Of a DNA stretch of 25,694 bases, positions 914 to 19,739 are shown piece after piece (positions within the stretch are counted from its first letter, which is position 1; every line of letters starts with the position of its first letter). A program made the position numbers and the translations under genes. A model generated the notes under the pieces. It was not told the origin of the DNA and searched no databases. It saw only the letters and a program-made list of their open reading frames with translations. Source of the stretch: a virus; the IMG/VR virus record IMGVR_UViG_3300032086_000415, positions 1-25,694 of that record; one strand, 5' to 3'.

Positions 914-1101
914 TAGTTTAGAAACCAATTCATTGATCGTTGTTGATCTTGATCAGCGATCTTTACAGGTATCTCACCTTCTGAAGCATCGCGTAATCGT
1001 AGAATATTAATCAAAGCATCATATGTTCTAGCGAATACAGAATTTTTATTTCTTTCTTCGTATGATAACTCTGGGTATACTCCCTTACTAAATAAACTCA
1101 T
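913..1101 (-). CDS. Small hypothetical protein between virion genes
   Basis: A 62-residue protein beginning MSLFSKGVYPELSYEERNK. It overlaps its upstream neighbour by one base (TAATG at 1101) and its downstream neighbour by one base (TAATG at 913), so it is probably translated by coupling. It is charged and predicted mainly helical, with a central ARTYDALINILRLR segment and no signal peptide or membrane segment. I do not recognise a family. Its tight position between a large tail-type protein and a small beta-rich protein suggests a virion assembly role, which is an inference from context only. Confidence 0.7.
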   Translation of the reverse strand: MSLFSKGVYPELSYEERNKNSVFARTYDALINILRLRDASEGEIPVKIADQDQQRSMNWFLN

Positions 1102-2990
1102 TATCTTGTTCCGTCTGCCTGTCCTTCAGCTCTCCAAGTTCCAAGTCTCCAAGATGTGTCTGCTGCATCTGAAAAGTATTTAACTTGAAATGATCTGCCT
1201 CTAGAACGTAAATTTAATTTGGTAGTGGATGAAGTTAATGTAAAAGGTCCTTTGGTTGTTTCAGTTCCATTAGGATATCTTTTTGATTTCATCTGAAATT
1301 TAATTTGAGAACCTGAGAAGAAAGTGGTGTCTGGTATTATACGACTCATAAATATTAAGTTATCACCATTCTCATCGCCAGCAAAGAATCCAGTTTCTAC
1401 TGAAGCTTCTAGTGCTGATGTATTATCATTGACTCCGTTCTCATGCTCAAATACATTACCTGAAGAATCTGTAGCTAATGGGAACTCTTCTATATCAGAA
1501 TCTGTCCAAGCAGTTCTAACTAAAGAACCTATAGCCCAAGTATTATCCACGTAATTATAAATTACATAGTTTGTTATTTCTGTACTAGTTCCTGATGGAT
1601 AGAACCACCATACTTCTTGGAACTTAGTATTGACTGCGGCAAAAACTTTTTCTCTTTGTATGTTGTTTATATTATCAAACACTGTAGTTCTTACAGGACA
1701 TTCTAAAGTTTTAACTGCACCATCGTAAACATAAAAGTTATCTAGACCCATCCAGTATGCCAAACCTTCAACCATGCCAGGAGCTTTAGGTGCTAAAGAA
1801 CCTGATGCTTCACTGAGTTGTTGAAAAGAAAATGTAAATGGTGGACCCACAAATTGCATACTGTATAAATCCCTATCAGTCCAAACATACATTTGACCAC
1901 GACCTTTTGTAGCAGAAACTATTCTACTGCCTGTGCCTAATTTTTGTGAACCCGATGTATTAGTTATATCTGCGTTCCATGTAGATAAACTTTCTTGTGA
2001 AGAGAAACGAATTGTTGTTTCATCAAAATCTGTAGATCCTTGTGGGTTACAACCAAATACACAAATGTGTCTGTCTGGTGTAGATACTAACACTCTACCA
2101 GTTTTAGTTGGTATCTGTGTTGCGTCACCACTTAATGTATTAGTTACATAGTGTGCTAAAGTTACACCTCTGTAAGTAGAAGCTCCTGCCAAAAATGCAC
2201 TAATGTCAAAATAATATATGGTGTCTGTGCCATCTGCTGTAGAAGCTATTACGTCTTCACCAAAAGAATCAAATGACCATACTCTAGGTTCCAATACGAT
2301 ACCCGCTGCTATTGTTCTAGCTGTGCCCCATGTAGACAATGCGTAAGTTCCTGCACCCCAACCAAATCCTGTAGTAGCATCTGATGGTCCGTTGTTTGTT
2401 AAATATCTTACTGTGACTGTGCCACCACCTGATGTAGATCCTGATGAAGCTGTGCCTGATATACTACCTGTGCCCCCTGGAACTGCTGTTATGTTATAAC
2501 TGTTAGCTGTTAAAAATTCTACAAAATATTCACCAGCTGCAATTGTAACTCCGTCTGTAGTTCCTGATCCTACAGATTCTATTACTACTCTAGATTGAGG
2601 TGTTGTACTAGTCACTCCATGATTAGCATCTGTAACTGTGACAGTGCTACTACCTGTTGATCCTGTTGTAAAAGGATTTGACAGGGTTTGAGTATCTGTT
2701 CTAAAAGGTGTGATGTCATAAATAGCATCACCAAACTCCATGAAAACATGCGTACTTGTGCCGTAAAAATTAAATTTCTTACCAGTAGAATCTCGGTGAT
2801 TGAAGATAGATCTACATACTCCAGATAAAGTAGTGGAACTAAAAGCTTCTCTTTTTACCCAACCACCTATTTTTTCAGGAGCACCTTTTCTAAATCTTAT
2901 CTTGTCTGAATCAGTATATCTTAATCCTGCTTGATAATCCGTAATGTCTGTTACAACTCCCGCAGGAGCTGTTAGTTTGACCAAGGGCAT
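1101..2990 (-). CDS. Large tail/neck structural protein, P22 gp10-like in outline
   Basis: A 629-residue protein starting MPLVKLTAPAGVVTDITDY. The N-terminal 60 residues (ITDYQAGLRYTDSDKIRFR, then EKIGGW) match my memory of a conserved marine-phage structural family, often annotated as tail or phage stabilisation protein. The rest is Thr/Ser/Gly-rich with many short strands, including a low-complexity Gly/Ser/Thr stretch at about residues 105-200 and repeated aromatic WxxD-type segments (SLSTWNAD, YVWTDRDLY, EVWWFYPSG, YVDNTWAIG) that suggest a beta-propeller-like fold. P22 gp10 is a beta-rich tail-hub factor, so a similar role is plausible but unproven. It is preceded by a promoter/inverted-repeat region at 3009-3052, which suggests its own transcription start. 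The upstream GAAGG is a weak Shine-Dalgarno. Confidence 0.7.
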   Translation of the reverse strand: MPLVKLTAPAGVVTDITDYQAGLRYTDSDKIRFRKGAPEKIGGWVKREAFSSTTLSGVCRSIFNHRDSTGKKFNFYGTSTHVFMEFGDAIYDITPFRTDTQTLSNPFTTGSTGSSTVTVTDANHGVTSTTPQSRVVIESVGSGTTDGVTIAAGEYFVEFLTANSYNITAVPGGTGSISGTASSGSTSGGGTVTVRYLTNNGPSDATTGFGWGAGTYALSTWGTARTIAAGIVLEPRVWSFDSFGEDVIASTADGTDTIYYFDISAFLAGASTYRGVTLAHYVTNTLSGDATQIPTKTGRVLVSTPDRHICVFGCNPQGSTDFDETTIRFSSQESLSTWNADITNTSGSQKLGTGSRIVSATKGRGQMYVWTDRDLYSMQFVGPPFTFSFQQLSEASGSLAPKAPGMVEGLAYWMGLDNFYVYDGAVKTLECPVRTTVFDNINNIQREKVFAAVNTKFQEVWWFYPSGTSTEITNYVIYNYVDNTWAIGSLVRTAWTDSDIEEFPLATDSSGNVFEHENGVNDNTSALEASVETGFFAGDENGDNLIFMSRIIPDTTFFSGSQIKFQMKSKRYPNGTETTKGPFTLTSSTTKLNLRSRGRSFQVKYFSDAADTSWRLGTWRAEGQADGTR

Positions 2991-3029: not shown

Positions 3030-3052
3030 ACACGTTTTTACCTAATATTCAA
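3024..3052 (-). promoter_or_regulatory. Promoter candidate sharing the AACGTGTTA element
   Basis: The minus strand carries TTGAAT (3052-3047), a 17-base spacer ending AACGTGT, and TAAATT (3029-3024). The -35 box overlaps the TGA stop of the oxygenase gene above. The promoter before the Hsp20 gene has the same layout: TTGAAC, 17 bases ending AACGTGT, then TATACT. The nine bases AACGTGTTA are identical and sit at the same offset in both. The -10 match is only moderate, so the shared spacer element is the main argument. Confidence 0.5.
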
Positions 3053-3639
3053 GCCTTATCTACTGCAAAATTGTAAGCTAAAGTTATCCTAGATTTATCT
3101 AATTTGTGCTGTTCAACTGCATGGTGTATGTGACTTCTAAATATTAGCAGTTTTCCCTCAATAGATTCATGTGTAATATGTGCATACGGATCTTCTTTAT
3201 TGTATTTTAATTCTACCATATCCTCTACTGGGGATTTAAACCAGACTTTACTACCACCTTTTGGTGATTGTAAAAAGTATATAGCTGATAAAGCAGACCC
3301 TGTATGTATATGAAACTCTTGAAAATCTCCTTTGCCATACACATTAAACCAAGCATTCTCAGGTGCTACATTAGAACCTATGTAATTGCTGCCCATATAT
3401 TCTGCTACTTTACTAAATACCCATTGATGTAAATCTGCAAATGCTTCATCTTTTAATATATCGTAATCAGTATGTATGGTATTATAAGTCTTATTTGCTA
3501 GCCAACCTTCACCTCCAGGTTTAGTTTTTTCTTTTACTTCTAAACATCTTTTAACTAATTTATTTTTGATATTTTTATTATCTTTGTTAAGACTATAACC
3601 AATGCCTGTAGCAAAAAACTTCTCTGTTACTACTTGCAT
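3049..3639 (-). CDS. 2OG-Fe(II) oxygenase-type protein (HxH variant)
   Basis: A 196-residue protein beginning MQVVTEKFFATGIGYS. The C-terminal half has the layout of a double-stranded beta-helix dioxygenase of the small family often labelled 2OG-FeII_Oxy_5: an iron-binding H110-I-H112 after FQEF, the strand SAIYFLQSPKGGSKVWF, the distal histidine region IFRSHIHH (170-173) and R184 in SRITLAYNF as the likely 2-oxoglutarate anchor. In this family HxH can replace the usual HxD. The expected reaction is 2OG- and O2-dependent hydroxylation; the substrate is unknown. The start overlaps the previous gene by 10 bases. It is the last gene of the oxygenase/carbamoyltransferase cassette and is followed by a promoter candidate. 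Confidence 0.8.
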   Translation of the reverse strand: MQVVTEKFFATGIGYSLNKDNKNIKNKLVKRCLEVKEKTKPGGEGWLANKTYNTIHTDYDILKDEAFADLHQWVFSKVAEYMGSNYIGSNVAPENAWFNVYGKGDFQEFHIHTGSALSAIYFLQSPKGGSKVWFKSPVEDMVELKYNKEDPYAHITHESIEGKLLIFRSHIHHAVEQHKLDKSRITLAYNFAVDKA

Positions 3640-4088
3640 TTCATACCACCTACTGCTACTTTTTTATTTAGTTTAGATTGTAAACCCTCGTGTTGTATAT
3701 CTGCATCGAATACAACTAGTTTACCTCTTTTAGGTTTTGTAGTTATTACTTCATCATCTCTATAAAATACTGTGTCACCATCAGAATCATTTAGATAAAG
3801 TATAAATGATTTGTCTTCGTGTTCTTCATGGTTGTGACGATCTTGATAACCACCTTGAAAGTATTCTATTAAATGCATATGGTCAAAGTTATATTCTTCT
3901 AGTTGCAATTCTTTAACTAGCTTTGAATGCAATGTAGGATACAAAACATTGCCAGTTTGATATCCGTTTTGTGTTTTATTTTTTGCATTTCTTATTTCTA
4001 ATATTGGAGTTCGAGCTTTCCAATATTCTAATAAATCTAACAATTCATTAATTAGATCGTTGTTTTCTATACGTGTTACTTTAATCAT
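3630..4088 (-). CDS. Double-stranded beta-helix oxygenase-like protein, atypical ligands
   Basis: A 152-residue protein starting MIKVTRIENNDLINEL. It has the signature of a prolyl-4-hydroxylase-type fold: YFQGGYQDRHNHEEH (77-90), the strand SFILYLND with GDTVFYRDD, then RGKLVVFDADIQHEG with distal H133. The proximal metal motif reads H85-N-H87 rather than HxD. Where an arginine normally binds 2-oxoglutarate there are lysines (K142-K143 in NKKVAVGG). It could be an active variant, or a degenerate or regulatory partner of its neighbours. It overlaps the upstream gene by 8 bases and the downstream one by 10, so all four oxygenase-type genes appear co-translated. Confidence 0.7.
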   Translation of the reverse strand: MIKVTRIENNDLINELLDLLEYWKARTPILEIRNAKNKTQNGYQTGNVLYPTLHSKLVKELQLEEYNFDHMHLIEYFQGGYQDRHNHEEHEDKSFILYLNDSDGDTVFYRDDEVITTKPKRGKLVVFDADIQHEGLQSKLNKKVAVGGMKCK

Positions 4089-4689
4089 TTTTAAAATATT
4101 GAGGTAATCCTAAGAATGGTCTTGTATCATAAATATAATTTTTATCATCTGTAAAATGAAAAAATACTTGTGCACAATCATCTCCTTCAAAGGCATCTCT
4201 CCAGTGTTCTAATTCACAACCTCTGTACATTAGCATGTCTCCTGGATTTAAATTTACCTCTACCCCTTTCTTATTTTCTTTACCTGATGGTTCTAAATAA
4301 ATGGGCCACTCATCTCCTCCTATATTCATCGTTGTAGAAATTTTACACGATGGTCTATCTTTATGTCTTTTTAAGACATCCCCCTTTTTATATATTCTAT
4401 AATACGTGTAAGTAGAATACAAATTTAATTTACTTTCTTTTTCTAATATGGGTCTTATAGTTTTTTCTAATAACAAATCAAATATAGGATCACCATACAT
4501 ACCATATGTTTGAGGTACTTGCCTATCACCAAATGATCCATGATCTACACTAAAGTAAGTTATATATTTTTGTTCAAATTTAAATTTAGCAATGTTTCTT
4601 TGCAGTAACATATAATCATAAAGAAAGTTAGCAAACTTTGTATCTATTGCATTTGGTACAACTAAATAATTATCTTCTACAAAACTCAT
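4081..4689 (-). CDS. 2OG-Fe(II) oxygenase-type protein
   Basis: A 202-residue protein starting MSFVEDNYLVVPNAI. The ATG at 4689 overlaps the upstream stop (ATGA); an in-frame GTG at 4713 would add MVERKEFC but lies deeper in the previous gene, so I prefer 4689. The core is YYRIYKKGDVLKRHKD with H109-K-D111 as the HxD iron motif, followed by KISTTMNIGG, the strand WPIYLEP, a turn with LNPGDMLMY, and distal H162 in ELEHWRDAF. The arginine position appears to be taken by Q174 (CAQVFFHF), as in some phage members. I recall similar proteins in cyanophages. Hydroxylation of an unknown substrate is inferred. Confidence 0.78.
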   Translation of the reverse strand: MSFVEDNYLVVPNAIDTKFANFLYDYMLLQRNIAKFKFEQKYITYFSVDHGSFGDRQVPQTYGMYGDPIFDLLLEKTIRPILEKESKLNLYSTYTYYRIYKKGDVLKRHKDRPSCKISTTMNIGGDEWPIYLEPSGKENKKGVEVNLNPGDMLMYRGCELEHWRDAFEGDDCAQVFFHFTDDKNYIYDTRPFLGLPQYFKND

Positions 4690-5258
4690 ACAAAATTCTT
4701 TCCTCTCAACCACGCTACTGCTGAGTATCTAACCCCTTTGGTAACTGGCATAACTTTGTGCCATAGAAATGAAGGAAATACTACAAGGCTTCCTTTTGGT
4801 TTTATTTCTGAAACAGTTAACTCTTCTCCTGGTTTAACAACATTTGCGTTGCTTAACATAAAACTACCACCTTCGTATTCTGATGGATCACTTAAAGATA
4901 TTACAACTGATAACTTTCTAATTGTGTCACCATCTGAATTAAAATCATAATGCCAATCATAATGTTGTCCTGGTTTGTATTCTGTAAATTGGACTGCTTC
5001 AGATTTTTCGTACTGAAAGTTCCAACCAGCATTTTTGTTAGCTTCTGAAACAAATGGAAATATTAAACCATATAACCAATCTTCATCTATCCAAGAGATG
5101 TTTGAATTTCTAATTTCTAAATTTTGTTTAGCTGGGTCTGTATTGTCACCAGCTAATGCTACATCTAGCTTCTTATCTTTGCCTACTTTTATTATATCTT
5201 CACAAATATTGTTTGGCATGGCTTGATTAAAATACCAATAATTATAATTTAATATCAT
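4686..5258 (-). CDS. 2OG-Fe(II) dioxygenase, prolyl-4-hydroxylase superfamily
   Basis: A 190-residue protein starting MILNYNYWYFNQAMP. This is the most canonical oxygenase of the cassette: YKPGQHYDWHYDFN gives the HxD pair H103/D105, followed by KLSVVISLSDPSEYEGGSF, then GSLVVFPSFLWHKV with distal H167 and RYSAVAW with R177 as the 2-oxoglutarate-binding arginine. Length and order match P4Hc or PiuC-like enzymes, which hydroxylate with Fe(II), 2-oxoglutarate and O2. The start is behind a clear AAGGAG and overlaps the upstream carbamoyltransferase stop (ATGA). The substrate cannot be read from sequence; linkage to the carbamoyltransferase suggests that the new hydroxyl may be the carbamoyl acceptor. 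Confidence 0.88.
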   Translation of the reverse strand: MILNYNYWYFNQAMPNNICEDIIKVGKDKKLDVALAGDNTDPAKQNLEIRNSNISWIDEDWLYGLIFPFVSEANKNAGWNFQYEKSEAVQFTEYKPGQHYDWHYDFNSDGDTIRKLSVVISLSDPSEYEGGSFMLSNANVVKPGEELTVSEIKPKGSLVVFPSFLWHKVMPVTKGVRYSAVAWLRGKNFV

Positions 5259-5794
5259 ATTAACTCCTTACTTTCAGGCAGATATAAATAATCTATCGCA
5301 GATTGTTCAACTACATTCTTTGCATCTCTTAAAGTTTGTACAATAGGATAACCTGCCATATTGAATGAAGTATTAAATAATATTGGAATCTGTGTTAGGT
5401 TGTAAAATTCTTTTATTAAATCATAAAAGTTTTTATTTGTTTCTCTTTGCAGAGTTTGAACTCTACACGTACCATCTACATGTGTGATAGCTGGTATTAA
5501 AGATTGTTTAGATTTGATTACATCTACAGCATACATCATAAATGGTGACTCAGTTTGCTTACCTAAATCAAACCAATCTTTTGCGTACTCGTACAAAACT
5601 GTACCAGCAAATGGTCTAAACCATTCTCGTTTCTTTACTGTATTTACTTTGTCTTTACCATTAGGATTGGCTGGATTGTGTAATATACTTCTATTGCCTA
5701 ATGCTCTAGGACCTGATTCAGATGCTCCTTGAAACATAGCAATTATTTTATTATCTGCTAATAATTGTGCAACGTCTTTATGTGTTACGACCAT
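5255..5794 (-). CDS. Carbamoyltransferase C-terminal (YrdC-like) half, separate gene
   Basis: A 179-residue protein matching the C-terminal domain of NodU/TobZ/CmcH-type O-carbamoyltransferases. The signatures are FQGASESGPRALGNRSIL (21-38), WFRPFAG, ITHVDGTCRVQT (103-114) and LFNTSFN (139-145) before GYPIV. In TobZ this YrdC-like domain makes carbamoyladenylate from carbamoyl phosphate and ATP. Here it is encoded apart from the Kae1-like half: its ATG at 5794 lies 17 bases inside the upstream gene in another frame and has its own AGGAG about 10 bases upstream. The two halves together total about 540 residues, near the usual single-chain length, so a two-subunit enzyme is likely. A sequencing frameshift is less likely given the ribosome-binding site. 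Confidence 0.88.
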   Translation of the reverse strand: MVVTHKDVAQLLADNKIIAMFQGASESGPRALGNRSILHNPANPNGKDKVNTVKKREWFRPFAGTVLYEYAKDWFDLGKQTESPFMMYAVDVIKSKQSLIPAITHVDGTCRVQTLQRETNKNFYDLIKEFYNLTQIPILFNTSFNMAGYPIVQTLRDAKNVVEQSAIDYLYLPESKELI

Positions 5795-6866
5795 AGTATA
5801 TATTCTCCTGTTTTCTAATTGTCATATCTTTTGTCTCACCATGATATAACATCTTAGCTGCTCCCATTGAAGTTCCTGCATCGTTAGATAAAGGTTCTAT
5901 ATACAAAGAAACATCATCTGGTAACGATTTCATTATATCATAATTGGCTACGCAATTCAAGAAATAACCTCCACTCAAACAAACCTTTTTTGTCTTGGTT
6001 TTCTGTACCCAATCTAACACATATTTTTTTACATGCTTTTGAGTTTCTGTTTGTAAGGCATATGCAAAGTCTGCTCCAGCTTGAAAGTTATCTCTAGCTA
6101 AATCCATGTATGGATAATTTTTGTTATTAATAAACATTTTAGTTAGATTGTCATCTATATAAAAAAGTCTATTATTTAATTTACCATCTGTGTATATTGG
6201 CGGAACGCATTCATTAGGTTTGCCATAACTAGCCATACCCATAAGTTTACCAGCGTCCATATGTGCAAAGCCAAAAAATTCAGAGCTATGTCCAAATGCT
6301 TGAGCAGGACTCATGTGATTACTGACATGCATTCGACTATCTATATCTACTTTGCCTTTTATTTCTGTGGGATAACTTATGTGTTTTTCTAACAATTCAA
6401 AAGATGCTGGATAAGAACCTTGAAATACTGAAGTATGTTCTCTGCCATATACTCTTTGACCATCTAGTTTAAAGTAAACTTCTGAACCCATACCATCTAT
6501 AACTATACATAAAGCATCTTCAAAACCTGAATTGTAAAAACTGCAAGCAGCATGAAGTTGATGATGATGACTACTTAAGTCTGTAGTTTTGAATGGTTTG
6601 AATTTAAATGAGCGAGATAAATTATCTACAAGATGTGTAAATATATCTTTACCTTCCCAATAATCTATATCTTGTTTAGAGAAAGCTGCTATACCTAATC
6701 TGTCTATATGATCTACATACTTGGTTATTTCTAACATAGCATGTATAGGAAGACAGTCGTACTTTATTTTTGTTAATCTTTCGTTTTCTAAATGTAGTAA
6801 GACTTCACCATCTTTAACTAAACAGACAGAAGCGTTATGATTACGATTTATACCTAAGCAAATCAC
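5778..6866 (-). CDS. Carbamoyltransferase N-terminal (Kae1-like) half, NodU/TobZ family
   Basis: A 362-residue protein starting at a GTG (6866) that overlaps the upstream stop (GTGA). Motifs are GINRNHNAS (5-13), LENERLTKIK (26-35), the metal-binding SHHHQLHAACSFY with H101/H105 as the HxxxH pair, VIDGMGSE (122-129), GMASYGKP (210-217), LSGGYFLNCVAN (297-308) and EPLSNDAGTSMGAA (324-337), where D329 completes the metal site. In TobZ this ASKHA/Kae1-like domain transfers the carbamoyl group from carbamoyladenylate to a hydroxyl. The chain ends at residue 362, just where the linker to the YrdC-like domain would begin; that domain is the next gene. The acceptor is unknown. Confidence 0.9.
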   Translation of the reverse strand: MICLGINRNHNASVCLVKDGEVLLHLENERLTKIKYDCLPIHAMLEITKYVDHIDRLGIAAFSKQDIDYWEGKDIFTHLVDNLSRSFKFKPFKTTDLSSHHHQLHAACSFYNSGFEDALCIVIDGMGSEVYFKLDGQRVYGREHTSVFQGSYPASFELLEKHISYPTEIKGKVDIDSRMHVSNHMSPAQAFGHSSEFFGFAHMDAGKLMGMASYGKPNECVPPIYTDGKLNNRLFYIDDNLTKMFINNKNYPYMDLARDNFQAGADFAYALQTETQKHVKKYVLDWVQKTKTKKVCLSGGYFLNCVANYDIMKSLPDDVSLYIEPLSNDAGTSMGAAKMLYHGETKDMTIRKQENIYYGRNT

Positions 6867-7408
6867 GGAATAGTTACACCAATAGATAATTTTTTATCTG
6901 TTGTTTTAACCACCTCGTGTCTTGTAAATCTAGGAACTAACAAAGTATCATTAGCTTTTAATGTAACTTCTTCTCCAGAAACTAACCAATGTCCTGTTCC
7001 ATATATTTGTTTAACGACCACATCAAAGTCGTGTTCATGCGTAGTGTAACTTATTTTCTGCCCCCCTGGCTTGGCAAAAACAAAGTTTGCATTTACTGTA
7101 TCACCTACTAATTTTTTACAGATTAAATCTAATTCTCTTAATTCTTTTGTTAAATCTAACACACTGTTTAACACAGTCATAAAACCGTTGTCGTAATACT
7201 TCTTCCATTCTTCATAGACAAAGTAACCATCGTAACTGTAAAAAGGAAATACTAATATACCACTGCTATTTAATATTTCTACACCGTATTGACCCCATGG
7301 ATATTTTAAAGGCCATCGTTTTCTTATTTGCAAAAGATCCAATACATCATCTTCCTGTAACGGAATATGTAAGTCTTTTAATTCTTGTTCTAGTTTATTT
7401 AAATACAC
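6863..7408 (-). CDS. Cupin/JmjC-like protein with HEHD motif
   Basis: A 181-residue protein starting at GTG 7408, a few bases after AGGAG. The N-terminal 110 residues are helical and not recognised. The C-terminal 70 residues look like a cupin barrel: THEHDFDVVVKQIYGTGHW (H124, H126, D127, K133), then LKANDTLLVPRFTRHEV with H164, and a final SIGVTI strand. The H-x-H-D...H layout, with a downstream Lys and 'G-x-W', resembles JmjC/cupin_4 oxygenases (HxD...H), so an Fe(II) enzyme is plausible; a non-catalytic sugar- or metal-binding cupin is the alternative. It opens the carbamoyltransferase/oxygenase cassette directly after a terminator-like hairpin. Confidence 0.65.
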   Translation of the reverse strand: MYLNKLEQELKDLHIPLQEDDVLDLLQIRKRWPLKYPWGQYGVEILNSSGILVFPFYSYDGYFVYEEWKKYYDNGFMTVLNSVLDLTKELRELDLICKKLVGDTVNANFVFAKPGGQKISYTTHEHDFDVVVKQIYGTGHWLVSGEEVTLKANDTLLVPRFTRHEVVKTTDKKLSIGVTIP

Positions 7409-7455: not shown

Positions 7456-8505
7456 TTAGCCTGATGTTGATTTCCATCTTCCTGCTTCAATTCTGTCGAA
7501 TACATCTTTTTGATTCCACATACCTGGAGCTATAAATGTTAATCCTGGAACAGCAGCTTCATGTATTACTACTTTACCGCTACCTCCATCTCCACCGTCT
7601 CTTGGTGGGGAGTTACCTCTTGGGTGACAAGCAGAACCTGCTCCACCGCCACCTCCGCCTGTATTGGCTGAAGCATCTGATCCGTTTGCATCTGTTCCAC
7701 CAGCACCAGCTCCACCTGGGCCAGCAGCACCGCCTGCTGTGTTACCTTTTACAGTACCACCTCCGCCACCGCCTGCAACAGTAGCTGAATAATTTCCTAC
7801 GTTAAATGGTGAACCGTTTCCACCGTTACCACCTCTACCTGGTTGAGATCCGTCACCGCCTGATAGACCAGCGCTACCAGCGCCACCACCTCCGCCAGAT
7901 CCTGAACCACCAGCTGGGCAAGTGTTTCCACCTGTTCTATCTCCACCTGCGTTACCTTGACCTGGTGCATTTGGAGATTCACCGCCTGCAGAAGAAGCTC
8001 CGCCTCCGCCTGATCCTCCTTGTTGAGGAGGGGCATTAGAACCGCCACCACCGCCTCCGCCACCTAAAGCTGTGTATGTTGTACCACCTGCTATAACGAC
8101 AGAGTTACCTCCTGGAGATCCTGCACTGTTTTGTACACCACCTGGAGTACCAGCTCCACCAGCGCCTACAGTTACAGGAACAGCATCCTGAGGAACTGCT
8201 ACTGCACTATTGCCTGGACTGTTGGTATTTGCACTATTAAAGAGAACGCCTCCGCCTCCTCCACCGCCACCTTGACGGTTGTTGTCAGCTCCAGCACCGC
8301 CGCCGCCTCCACCAGCAACAATTAATATGTTTGCTGTATTAGAAGCTTGGCCTGCTTGAAATGTACCTGACGAGTTAAATTGTGTAGTAGCTGCTGCTTG
8401 GTCTTGTGCATATCTAGTTACCTGAGATGGGCCTATTATCCCACCATTGTCTTTTGCAAAAGATGAAGAGCCTAAGTCTTTAGTTATTGTATTTACGCCT
8501 GCCAT
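7456..8505 (-). CDS. Glycine-rich putative adhesin / tail-fibre tip protein
   Basis: A 349-residue protein starting MAGVNTITKDLGSSSFAK. After a Ser/Thr/Gln N-terminus, an ANILIVAGGGGGG strand opens a long glycine-rich region (about residues 64-315) made of Gly runs broken by Asn, Ser, Ala and Pro loops. This is the pattern of glycine-rich phage domains that can fold as bundled polyglycine-II helices, as shown for the S16 gp38 adhesin. The C-terminus, APGMWNQKDVFDRIEAGRW, resembles the 'G-x-W ... AG-x-W' endings common on marine-phage tail proteins. Two Cys (in NTCPAG and SACHPR) lie in loops. A host-recognition role is inferred. The ATG follows GGAGTAAAT, and local G+C is well above its neighbours because of the glycine codons. 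Confidence 0.75.
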   Translation of the reverse strand: MAGVNTITKDLGSSSFAKDNGGIIGPSQVTRYAQDQAAATTQFNSSGTFQAGQASNTANILIVAGGGGGGAGADNNRQGGGGGGGGVLFNSANTNSPGNSAVAVPQDAVPVTVGAGGAGTPGGVQNSAGSPGGNSVVIAGGTTYTALGGGGGGGGSNAPPQQGGSGGGGASSAGGESPNAPGQGNAGGDRTGGNTCPAGGSGSGGGGGAGSAGLSGGDGSQPGRGGNGGNGSPFNVGNYSATVAGGGGGGTVKGNTAGGAAGPGGAGAGGTDANGSDASANTGGGGGGAGSACHPRGNSPPRDGGDGGSGKVVIHEAAVPGLTFIAPGMWNQKDVFDRIEAGRWKSTSG

Positions 8506-18055: not shown

Positions 18056-18385
18056 CTATTTATGTGATATTTTCGACGGATCTGGTACTACAGCTAGCAC
18101 TTCATCGTCATTAATCATCGAGTATTCTTCTCCTTCGTACTTGAATTTTAACCCAACATACTTAGCAGTAAGAACCCAATCACCTATTTTACACCACGAT
18201 TCGTTCTTATCATGATAACAATCAGATCCCATAGATATAACTTCAGACACAACACAAGAAAATTTAGCTGCTTCTCTTGAATCATCAGTTAATATTATGC
18301 CCCCTTTTGTTTTCTCTTCTACTTGCCTGGCTTTTAGTAAGACTCTAAAACCTGAAGGTTTTGGTAGCAATAATTGTTTAGACAT
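18056..18385 (-). CDS. groES: GroES-like co-chaperonin
   Basis: A 109-residue protein beginning MSKQLLLPKPSGFRVLLKA. I choose the ATG at 18385, six bases after AGGAGG, over an in-frame start at 18421. The Cpn10 hallmarks are PSGFRVLLKA at the N-terminus, EEKTKGGIILTDDSREAA (the mobile-loop region, 23-40), the barrel strands FSCVVSEVISMG, CKIGDWVLTAKYVGLKFKYEGEEY and the C-terminal MINDDEVLAVV. The family caps GroEL and aids folding; phage versions such as T4 gp31 replace host GroES for capsid protein folding. It lies just before the scaffold/capsid genes, in an operon with Hsp20. It is longer than host GroES by about ten residues, mainly around CYHDKNESW. Confidence 0.85.
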   Translation of the reverse strand: MSKQLLLPKPSGFRVLLKARQVEEKTKGGIILTDDSREAAKFSCVVSEVISMGSDCYHDKNESWCKIGDWVLTAKYVGLKFKYEGEEYSMINDDEVLAVVPDPSKISHK

Positions 18386-18584
18386 TGTTTGCCTCCTGTT
18401 TGTATAGTTTTTGATACTCATCTTTTACTCTAGATTTCATATCTTGCAAGGTATGTCCTATACCCAGCATATATTTGTATGAAGCAAAATCATCGGCACC
18501 CACACCAGATAGTTGATCTTTGTTGGCGTCTATTGCTTCATCCAAAGCCTTTAATAAATTGTCTTTTAATGTATTAGCGTTCAT
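18378..18584 (-). CDS. Small helical protein in the chaperone operon
   Basis: A 68-residue protein starting MNANTLKDNLLKALDEAID, behind ACAGGAG. It is almost wholly helical and amphipathic, in two blocks: residues 1-22, then FASYKYMLGIGHTLQDMKSRVKDEYQKL (33-60). I recall short proteins with this 'LKDNLLKALDEAIDANKDQL' opening in many marine phages, with no known function. It overlaps the start of the co-chaperonin by eight bases, so the two are probably co-translated. It might be a chaperone adaptor, but nothing in the sequence proves that. Confidence 0.68.
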   Translation of the reverse strand: MNANTLKDNLLKALDEAIDANKDQLSGVGADDFASYKYMLGIGHTLQDMKSRVKDEYQKLYKQEANNV

Positions 18585-18600
18585 GTCTCTCCTGTTGAAG

Positions 18601-18618
18601 GGGGCAGTTTTATGCCCC
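18601..18618 (-). terminator. GGGGCA/TGCCCC hairpin between Hsp20 and the 68-aa gene
   Basis: A perfect 6-bp stem with a 6-base loop (minus strand GGGGCA-TAAAAC-TGCCCC) sits six bases after the Hsp20 stop. It lacks a T-tract (CTTCAAC follows), so partial termination or mRNA processing/stabilisation between two genes of the operon is more likely than a full stop. Confidence 0.45.
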
Positions 18619-18624
18619 GTCCAT

Positions 18625-19035
18625 TTACTTAATGTCTACTGTTTTAGGTTTTTTCTCCTCTGGTACAATCTTTTCAATATATATTGAAAGTAAACCATTT
18701 TTTAGATTTGCATCTGTCACTATCATATCATCTCCTAATGCAAATGATCTGATAAATGATCTTTGTGAAATACCCTGATGCACTACATTTTTATCTTCAG
18801 TCTTTTCTTTTTTAATAGATTGTACTGTCATAGTATTGTCTGCATACTCCACATTAATATCTTCTTTACCAAAGCCTGCTACAGCCATTTCGACTACATA
18901 GTGCAAAGCATCTAATTTTTTGATATTGTATGGTGGGTAGTTTGGTGACTCAGTTTTTATATCCATGAGTCTATCTAGTATTGAATCGAACCCAACTGTA
19001 AATGGTCTGTAAGGTTCCCAATTTATAATATTCAT
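18625..19035 (-). CDS. Small heat-shock protein (Hsp20 / IbpA-like)
   Basis: A 136-residue protein starting MNIINWEPYRPFTVGFDSIL. The alpha-crystallin domain spans about 35-130: YPPYNIKKLDALHYVVEMAVAGF, EDINVEYADNTMTVQSIKKE, HQGISQRSFIRSFALGDDMIV, and the conserved NGLLSIYIEK (113-122). The N-terminal arm carries the FDSILDRL segment also seen in IbpA. These ATP-independent holdases bind unfolding proteins; phage copies occur in marine myoviruses and others. A strong promoter lies upstream (19086-19114), and CGGAGG precedes the ATG. It heads the Hsp20/68-aa/GroES-like operon. Confidence 0.88.
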   Translation of the reverse strand: MNIINWEPYRPFTVGFDSILDRLMDIKTESPNYPPYNIKKLDALHYVVEMAVAGFGKEDINVEYADNTMTVQSIKKEKTEDKNVVHQGISQRSFIRSFALGDDMIVTDANLKNGLLSIYIEKIVPEEKKPKTVDIK

Positions 19036-19085: not shown

Positions 19086-19114
19086 AGTATAACACGTTAT
19101 TTATTTTTGTTCAA
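19086..19114 (-). promoter_or_regulatory. Sigma70-like promoter of the chaperone operon
   Basis: TTGAAC (19114-19109), a 17-base spacer ending AACGTGT and TATACT (19091-19086) lie on the minus strand about 50 bases before the Hsp20 ATG. The -35 region is within the last codons of the gene above. The spacer/-10 junction AACGTGTTA is repeated at the 3024-3052 promoter. Confidence 0.65.
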
Positions 19115-19739
19115 GGAATTTATAAAAATAATTTGTATCATCACCTGCAGTCCATTTACTTACAGATTCTACATTATATTCTATAGTAGATACTTTAAAA
19201 TCTGGTTGCTTTGGTTCTGATGGTGTTAATGATTTATCATAAAACAAAGTTCTATTATTAGGTTGTGCTGCAAAATGTCCGTTATCTAATTCTATAATAT
19301 TAAAAGATTTATGTTCTGCAGGAACTTGTGAATAATTTATATTAGGTAAATTGTGATCTGCATGACAACTATCGATTGTAAATAAATATTCTCCTTGGTA
19401 CCATTGTTTTGCTGGTGACAAATATTTAGCCCTAGGTGGTACAGTTGTTTTTTCTATTACTGTTATGTGATAACTAAATGCATCCCAAAGTTCTAGTTCT
19501 TCTAATGGAAGATCATCTTTAACATCAGGGGAATTAACAAAAGCACTGATAGGGAGCTTATCATATAAAGCAGCATACTCTGGCAAATACGTTTCAAAGT
19601 AGAGCGCTCTACCCTGGATTGACTTAACAGTAGCCCAAACACCTTCTACAAATTCTCCATGTCCTTTTTGATGATCATATAAATATTGTTTCTTAACATA
19701 AACTTTTACAGGTGGTACGTTAGCAACTAAAAATGACAT
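19101..19739 (-). CDS. Conserved phage hypothetical protein
   Basis: A 212-residue protein starting MSFLVANVPPVKVYVKKQYLY. It is not a known enzyme to me, but many segments (HQKGHGEFVEGVW, LPEYAALYDKLPISAF, WYQGEYLFTIDSCHADHNL, EHKSFNIIELDNGHFAAQPNNR, and the terminal KWTAGDDTNYFY) match a conserved family I recall from cyanophages and pelagiphages. The pattern of strands with conserved W, H and D residues suggests a globular beta-rich protein rather than a filament. The ATG overlaps the stop of the upstream membrane micro-protein (TAATG). It lies between the basic small-gene block and the chaperone operon, and its own promoter is not seen. Confidence 0.75.
   Translation of the reverse strand: MSFLVANVPPVKVYVKKQYLYDHQKGHGEFVEGVWATVKSIQGRALYFETYLPEYAALYDKLPISAFVNSPDVKDDLPLEELELWDAFSYHITVIEKTTVPPRAKYLSPAKQWYQGEYLFTIDSCHADHNLPNINYSQVPAEHKSFNIIELDNGHFAAQPNNRTLFYDKSLTPSEPKQPDFKVSTIEYNVESVSKWTAGDDTNYFYKFLEQK

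Follow-up and report, generated by a model that had tools for sequence, protein, structure and literature searches.

Introduction

O-carbamoyltransferases of the TobZ, GdmN, NovN and NodU type divide their reaction between two domains: in TobZ, the YrdC-like part makes carbamoyl-adenylate, and the Kae1-like part passes the carbamoyl group to a hydroxyl. Here, we analyze a seven-gene cassette that encodes a carbamoyltransferase (CT) of this kind together with 2-oxoglutarate (2OG)-Fe(II) oxygenase-type proteins and a cupin, found in the IMG/VR virus record IMGVR_UViG_3300032086_000415 (25,694 bases, the whole stretch being hereafter called the window). The TerL, portal and major head protein genes and the order of the tail genes identify a marine podovirus-like phage, and the cassette, encoded entirely on the minus strand, lies where the tail genes end, next to a gene for a glycine-rich protein that we predict to be a tail adhesin. 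The window CT shares both domains and the metal-binding HxxxH...D motif with the known enzymes, but is encoded by two genes, belongs to a phage, and lies beside oxygenase genes and a structural gene rather than in an antibiotic or nod operon.

Hydroxylation of viral structural proteins has precedents. Mimivirus L230 hydroxylates a glycine-rich fiber-type protein of the virus itself, with sugar transfer following. The P4H of PBCV-1 is, as cited in PMC9301287, a viral prolyl hydroxylase acting on a viral protein. Both cases involve eukaryotic viruses, collagen repeats and glycosylation, whereas the modification proposed here is carbamoylation, and the neighboring protein shows no collagen-type Pro-Gly bias.

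Among phage enzymes, a 5-hydroxymethylcytosine CT paired with a thymidylate synthase (TS) homologue has been described (eLife 2021, PMC8670742). Like the window enzyme, it is a phage CT thought to use a hydroxyl supplied by a partner enzyme, but the partners in the window are oxygenases and an adhesin, and TS-linked CTs fall in other branches of our tree, which was built without the sequence of the eLife enzyme. A jumbo-cyanophage cluster of CT, oxygenases and halogenase was interpreted as serving capsule decoration or synthesis of a metabolite (Iyer, et al. 2021, PMC7824862). This cluster, in S-SSM6a and S-SSM7, has a CT, 2OG oxygenases and a cupin-like protein in common with the window, but also contains heptose/sugar genes and two CTs, the main one from another clade, and the portion of that account devoted to it notes no link to an adhesin; in our scans of the window, neither sugar/heptose genes nor a halogenase were found with the CT.

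Published proposals for the oxygenases themselves differ. Roles in nitrogen stress or DNA repair were suggested (Sullivan, et al. 2010, PMC3037559), and the 'ferrochelatase' of HTVC023P-type pelagiphages, always located beside a 2OG oxygenase, was linked to iron/heme metabolism (Wittmers, et al. 2022, PMC9599517). The same adjacency occurs in the window, but here the supposed ferrochelatase (OX3) resembles an oxygenase in its own right, and both genes lie beside the adhesin. In the literature searched, which left most subscription papers outside, we found no paper tying these enzymes to a glycine-rich adhesin.

Results

A conserved oxygenase pair beside a glycine-rich protein, with an exchangeable slot

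Seven minus-strand open reading frames (ORFs) span positions 3049-7408, with neighbors overlapping by 4 to 28 bases. In the order of transcription, the locus reads Gly-rich protein, CUP, CtN, CtC, OX4, OX3, OX2, OX1, virion structural protein (Table 1). A first-pass annotation made from the letters alone had described seven overlapping genes coding for a split CT, four 2OG-Fe(II) oxygenase-type proteins and a cupin, a description borne out by the ORFs, the Pfam matches and the gene order, which is retained in 8 of 8 related contigs as far as the contig ends allow. The ratio of nonsynonymous to synonymous substitution rates (dN/dS) is below 0.21 for every cassette gene (range 0.01-0.21), indicating purifying selection on all seven. 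The conserved order, the shared split of the CT and the low dN/dS together rule out a fortuitous collection of ORFs.

We mapped about 60 loci using the window proteins as probes. The linkage among these genes, on which the first-pass annotation had staked its interpretation, holds across unrelated phages, with the OX4-OX3 pair as the constant core. In pelagic podoviruses, pelagimyoviruses and cyanomyoviruses alike, this pair adjoins a protein of the Gly_rich_2 family (PF21722). Gly_rich_2 adjoins CT or oxygenase genes also in P-RSM4, S-MS29, HTVC033P and loci L053, L159 and L163; in the cyanomyoviruses P-RSM4, S-CAM8 and S-MS29, the backbones of which differ from that of the window, it lies directly beside the CT, with CUP intervening in the window. 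An OX4-OX3 pair lacking the CT is found next to a Gly_rich_2-type protein in HTVC033P, HTVC023P, HTVC008M, Mosig and about 15 IMG/VR contigs, and the same combination recurs in contigs of phage origin from assemblies of SAR11, Maricaulis and Flavobacteria. In S-MbCM6, the protein at the corresponding place is rich in Gly but does not match PF21722. Across whole genomes searched for PF21722 and phrog_2954, the distance from OX3 to Gly_rich_2 is shorter than expected (13 genomes, Fisher p = 4.8e-5; 11 genomes, without two near-duplicates, p = 5.2e-4), although these p-values assume an independence among phages that holds only in part. We consider this test better than the gene-order statistics within loci of 15-50 kb (Fisher p 0.003).

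The slot between the Gly-rich protein and OX4 varies in content. It is filled by CUP-CtN-CtC in the window and by a sulfotransferase in L159, L053 and L054; in L163, it contains a fused CT, an oxygenase, a cupin-like protein with no detectable homology to CUP, a second oxygenase and a tryptophan halogenase; and in L041 and its kin, it is empty. In L022, a sulfotransferase sits between the OX3 and OX2-type genes, accompanied by a CT and a halogenase, the latter called by similarity to the gene of L023, where the halogenase is identified by Pfam. Tailoring enzymes are interchangeable at this position next to the Gly-rich protein, which can be occupied by a carbamoyltransferase, a sulfotransferase or a tryptophan halogenase. 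Because a sulfotransferase also needs a hydroxyl-type acceptor, its presence at the same locus in other phages strengthens the logic of the hydroxylate-then-carbamoylate pathway proposed in the first pass, for which we infer both the order of the steps and the substrate.

Sequence change is faster in the Gly-rich protein itself than in the enzymes (dN/dS 0.32-0.39 vs 0.01-0.21), as expected for a protein in contact with the host, and we predict that it is a tail adhesin. A comparison of this low-complexity sequence with the sequences of solved structures in the PDB, in which a relation to a solved adhesin, such as the polyglycine adhesin of the S16 gp38 type, was sought, gave no match at E up to 1. 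The phrog_7759 protein is syntenic with the Gly-rich protein in most loci.

Table 1. Genes of the cassette and its surroundings in the window
Feature	Position	Strand	Characteristics
phrog_7759 protein, 164 aa	8515..9009	-	possible tail assembly partner
Gly_rich_2 (PF21722) protein	7456..8505	-	349 aa, ~31% Gly; Pfam 75.8 bits vs cut-off 24.3; predicted tail adhesin
CUP, cupin/JmjC-type	6863..7408	-	HxH...H (H124, H126, H164)
CtN, Kae1-like half of O-carbamoyltransferase	5778..6866	-	PF02543
CtC, YrdC-like half of O-carbamoyltransferase	5255..5794	-	PF16861; own AGGAG ribosome-binding site
OX4, P4H/PKHD-type 2OG-Fe(II) oxygenase	4686..5258	-	PF13640; H103, D105, H167, R177
OX3, 2OG-oxygenase-type (phrog_2954)	4081..4713	-	H117, D119, H170; AlphaFold/Foldseek
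OX2, short divergent 2OG-Fe(II) oxygenase-type	3630..4088	-	PF13640
OX1, 2OG-FeII_Oxy_5 / TIGR02466	3049..3639	-	H110, H112, H173, R184
Virion structural protein phrog_3287	1101..2990	-	bounds locus on other side; follows oxygenase block in related loci

Elsewhere in the window, a GroES-like co-chaperonin and an Hsp20 are encoded beside the head genes (18056-19035). A 212-aa protein (19101-19739) strongly matches phrog_3704, labeled 'ferredoxin', but no Pfam family, so that this label looks doubtful.

A carbamoyltransferase split into two conserved genes

CtN matches Carbam_trans_N (PF02543) with 83.7 bits (cut-off 24) and CtC matches Carbam_trans_C (PF16861) with 209.8 bits (cut-off 27). Against phrog_1601, a fused CT of 528 residues, CtN covers positions 1-334 and CtC covers positions 356-524, so that the Kae1-like domain is on one side of the cut and the YrdC-like domain on the other. 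The metal ligands of CtN, HxxxH (H101, H105) and D329, align with those of GdmN, and nearly the full length of CtC aligns with GdmN and with the solved carbamoyltransferase 7xb6. We therefore describe CtN and CtC, on these alignments, as a split member of the NodU/TobZ-type O-carbamoyltransferase family, the usual single fused polypeptide being replaced by two ORFs. The CT halves recognized in the first pass are accordingly real, and take the form of a conserved pair of genes.

The two ORFs overlap by 17 bases, and the ATG of CtC is preceded by its own clean Shine-Dalgarno site. All 8 related contigs share the split, the junction and the Shine-Dalgarno site are conserved in the near relatives, and dN/dS is low for both halves (0.013-0.08 for CtN, 0.05-0.07 for CtC); these features rule out a frameshift artefact. 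In S-CAM8 and P-RSM4, which are distant relatives, a single gene encodes both halves of the CT. Further split CTs occur in S-RIM44, S-SCSM1 and L019, and in the first two the C half comes first, which suggests that splitting probably happened more than once.

Oxygenases and a JmjC-like cupin

Of the four oxygenases, Pfam places OX4, OX2 and OX1, and OX3 is placed by its predicted fold; all of the small proteins thereby find a place in a dioxygenase-type fold, the failure of which would have counted against the first-pass interpretation. OX4 matches 2OG-FeII_Oxy_3 (PF13640) with 67.3 bits (cut-off 27), its closest solved relatives are PiuC-type PKHD hydroxylases, and the four residues that the first pass had singled out as canonical (Table 1) are invariant in 16 sequences. 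OX2 scores 30.8 bits against the same family and cut-off. OX1, an HxH-type protein with all four listed residues invariant in 7 sequences, matches 2OG-FeII_Oxy_5 with 57 bits (cut-off 27) and TIGR02466 with 72.1 bits (cut-off 62.5). The PHROG label 'DNA endonuclease V' for OX2 was rejected, given that Pfam identifies a 2OG oxygenase; phrog_274 and phrog_2297, with the labels 'DNA endonuclease V' and 'DNA endonuclease', match OX2 and similar small proteins assigned by Pfam to the 2OG oxygenases, and the cyanophage records that use these names may be misannotated.

OX3 has no match to any Pfam family, ferrochelatase included, at E up to 1, but its H117xD119...H170 triad is invariant in 16 sequences, down to ~31% identity. 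The best Foldseek match of its AlphaFold model (predicted local distance difference test score, pLDDT, 81.7) is P. putida P4H (E 1.4e-8), the structure of which was determined with EF-Tu bound; PHD2 is also among the nearest folds, and SnoN and PHD-type hydroxylases align at Z 15-17. The predicted structure and the alignment together give a double-stranded beta-helix with an HxD...H triad, so that OX3 is best modeled as a 2OG-oxygenase-type protein with a prolyl-hydroxylase-like fold. Some 10 residues past the distal His lies an invariant Q182, with invariant R172 and R120 nearby, and a 2OG-binding Arg is not obvious, so that activity is not assured. The 'ferrochelatase' assignment carried by phrog_2954 is ruled out for OX3 by the null Pfam result and the P4H-like fold. 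More generally, this label (phrog_2954 and phrog_3531), widely used for cyanophages and pelagiphages, sits on a prolyl-hydroxylase-like family with an invariant HxD...H. Homologues of OX3 also occur away from any Gly-rich protein in contigs from bacterial assemblies (L162, L169-L177), where the neighboring genes could hint at a cellular substrate.

CUP falls just under two Pfam cut-offs (Cupin_2, 26.9 vs 27.2; JmjC_2, 20.6 vs 22). Its AlphaFold model (pLDDT 90.7) aligns with NO66 over 166 of 181 residues (Z 15.7, root-mean-square deviation 2.8), and all 50 of the fold matches listed are JmjC proteins, including MINA53, YcfD, FIH and JMJD5. The HxH...H triad is invariant in 40 sequences and differs from the HxD/E...H pattern, for which reason we call CUP JmjC-like rather than a member of the family. 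Many JmjC oxygenases act on proteins. The cupin reported in the first pass is thus present but most resembles a JmjC-type oxygenase, so that, if the modeled fold is a guide, it is the probable fifth oxygenase of a cassette credited with four.

Three genomic contexts of carbamoyltransferases in marine phages

Marine-phage CTs occur in three contexts: with an adhesin and oxygenases, with GT9-like/heptose genes, or with thymidylate synthase. The window CT groups with those of S-CAM8, P-RSM4, S-MS29 and L018, and with the out-of-context L016 and L017 (support 98/95), and is separated by a 96/99 branch from TS-linked CTs, which lie in other branches and lack the adhesin context. The main heptose-type CTs form one separate, well-supported clade, and the four genomes with the CT in a heptose island have no OX3 anywhere. 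The CTs of L021-L023 represent a second lineage beside OX4-OX3. A single clade for all adhesin-linked CTs was rejected by the approximately unbiased (AU) test (p = 0.010; L163 is a long branch); as the CTs in this context are not one clade, the tree indicates recruitment to the adhesin locus at least twice.

Several other loci deserve mention. Directly after ThyX, S-RIM44 (L062, 7468-9089) encodes one split CT and S-SCSM1 (L066, 7428-11010) two in tandem; both loci are candidates for DNA-base carbamoylation. Cyanophage tail loci L061, L063, L065 and L067 combine a GT9-type heptosyltransferase-like gene, a CT and heptose-nucleotide genes, a possible system for carbamoyl-heptose decoration. In phages without the Gly-rich protein, phrog_7084 proteins flank or neighbor the CTs (L016, 3151-6249; L019, 3224-3910). 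In S-CREM1 (L153, 10965-20444), a single block past the tail fiber genes combines a halogenase and a collagen-like protein with several genes annotated as 2OG oxygenases, one annotated as JmjC and an OX3 homologue.

Discussion

The explanation that we favor, and to which we give about an even chance, is post-translational hydroxylation and O-carbamoylation of the neighboring Gly-rich adhesin. The cassette would be a tailoring unit for this protein, expressed late in infection. OX4 and OX3, as the core, along with OX2, OX1 and the JmjC-type CUP, would add hydroxyl groups to adhesin side chains while the newly synthesized polypeptide is folding, using Fe(II), O2 and 2-oxoglutarate. CtC would make carbamoyl-adenylate from carbamoyl phosphate and ATP, and the metal-dependent CtN would move the carbamoyl group onto a hydroxyl, either produced by the oxygenases or already present on Ser or Thr. 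The decorated adhesin may have altered stability or receptor binding. A protein target is supported by the folds, in that those nearest to CUP (NO66, MINA53, YcfD, FIH and JMJD5) include protein hydroxylases, and OX3 is close to P. putida P4H and PHD2.

Several observations weigh against modification of the adhesin. Tail-fiber loci are recombination hotspots, so that adjacency need not mean coupling, and in Syn30 and S-SCSM1 OX3 lies far from any Gly_rich_2 gene. The canonical HxD is absent from CUP, and OX2 is divergent, its ligand pattern being less conserved in distant relatives. The idea that CUP is a constant partner of the CT was rejected, given that none of the 72 loci with a CUP homologue has a CT in the DNA compared. 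Finally, a collagen-like X-Pro-Gly target is not supported: the window Gly-rich protein contains 6 Pro-Gly pairs against 6.0 expected, so that collagen-style prolyl hydroxylation is not indicated.

Among the alternatives, decoration of a glycan is unlikely, but is the most probable. The CT would carbamoylate a sugar hydroxyl, in the manner of NodU, on tail-fiber sugars or on a host surface polysaccharide, for example, to block superinfection. Other marine-phage CTs do lie beside GT9-type heptosyltransferase-like and heptose-nucleotide genes, in S-CAM1, S-SSM7, P-SSM5 and Sf-FS3 (the PF01075 match of the GT9-type gene was tested only in S-CAM1, where it is at the cut-off), and capsule decoration is one of the two roles that Iyer et al. 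(PMC7824862) suggest for the S-SSM6a cluster. But these heptose-type CTs belong to the separate clade described above, no heptose genes lie near the CT in the window or in P-RSM4-type loci, and no glycosyltransferase or sugar-nucleotide genes were found among the window proteins scanned. We consider it quite unlikely that the genes are uncoupled cargo, inserted at a hotspot at the tail-fiber end of the late operon, with the oxygenases and the CT acting on separate substrates, such as host metabolites, or in 2-oxoglutarate balance or iron handling. The low GC content of the cassette (0.314 vs 0.369 for the window), the occurrence of 2OG oxygenases at other sites in these genomes, such as near uvsY/uvsW, the location of the Syn30 OX3 in the replication region and the nitrogen-stress role proposed by Sullivan et al. 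(PMC3037559) all fit such a scenario. It sits poorly, however, with the purifying selection on all seven genes, the recurrence of the adhesin-OX4-OX3 core in podo- and myoviruses with different backbones, and the fact that the slot transferases all require an acceptor group, a hydroxyl for instance.

The first-pass annotation listed phage DNA bases among the possible substrates, along with the adjacent Gly-rich protein, cell-surface glycan or a metabolite; genome context favors the Gly-rich protein and speaks against DNA. Hypermodification, in which an oxygenase would make a hydroxymethyl base and the CT would add the carbamoyl group, as in 5-carbamoyloxymethylcytosine, is very unlikely in our estimation, even though a phage carbamoyltransferase with such activity is known (PMC8670742) and the CT adjoins thymidylate synthase in S-RIM44 and S-SCSM1. 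There is no thymidylate synthase beside the window CT, and the six nearest relatives, all of which are fragments, contain no match to PF00303 or PF02511; the CT is far from ThyX in P-RSM4 and S-CAM8, and the TS-linked CTs belong to other branches. None of the cassette oxygenases matches the TET_JBP Pfam model, and the profile match of OX3 to a Naegleria Tet-like dioxygenase (E 0.12) is not significant. Least probable of all is a small secondary metabolite, made by the CT and the oxygenases (elsewhere with the halogenase) as in antibiotic clusters. The nearest solved CTs include the antibiotic tailoring enzymes GdmN, novobiocin carbamoyltransferase and TobZ, and a metabolite is the other product predicted for the jumbo-cyanophage cluster (Iyer, et al. 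2021, PMC7824862), but the window cassette lacks a scaffold-making enzyme, and the tight linkage to a structural protein persists across otherwise different phages.

Returning to modification of the adhesin, a broader version of this proposal is plausible, if somewhat short of an even chance: a modular adhesin-tailoring system common to several marine phage families, in which conserved OX4-OX3 hydroxylases and exchangeable carbamoyl-, sulfo- or halogen-transferring enzymes would rebuild the surface of the receptor-binding protein, with modules swapped to change binding. Such modular tailoring would resemble the tailoring of peptides in natural-product clusters.

Marine phages encode many 2OG-Fe(II) oxygenases of unexplained role, for which nitrogen stress, DNA repair, heme metabolism and secondary metabolites have been suggested. 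If our proposal is correct, those located next to tail genes would tailor the adhesin, a role that virion proteomics on cultured isolates could test. Host recognition would then rely on residues whose modification the gene sequence does not reveal, and adhesins predicted or expressed without the accompanying enzymes would be wrong.

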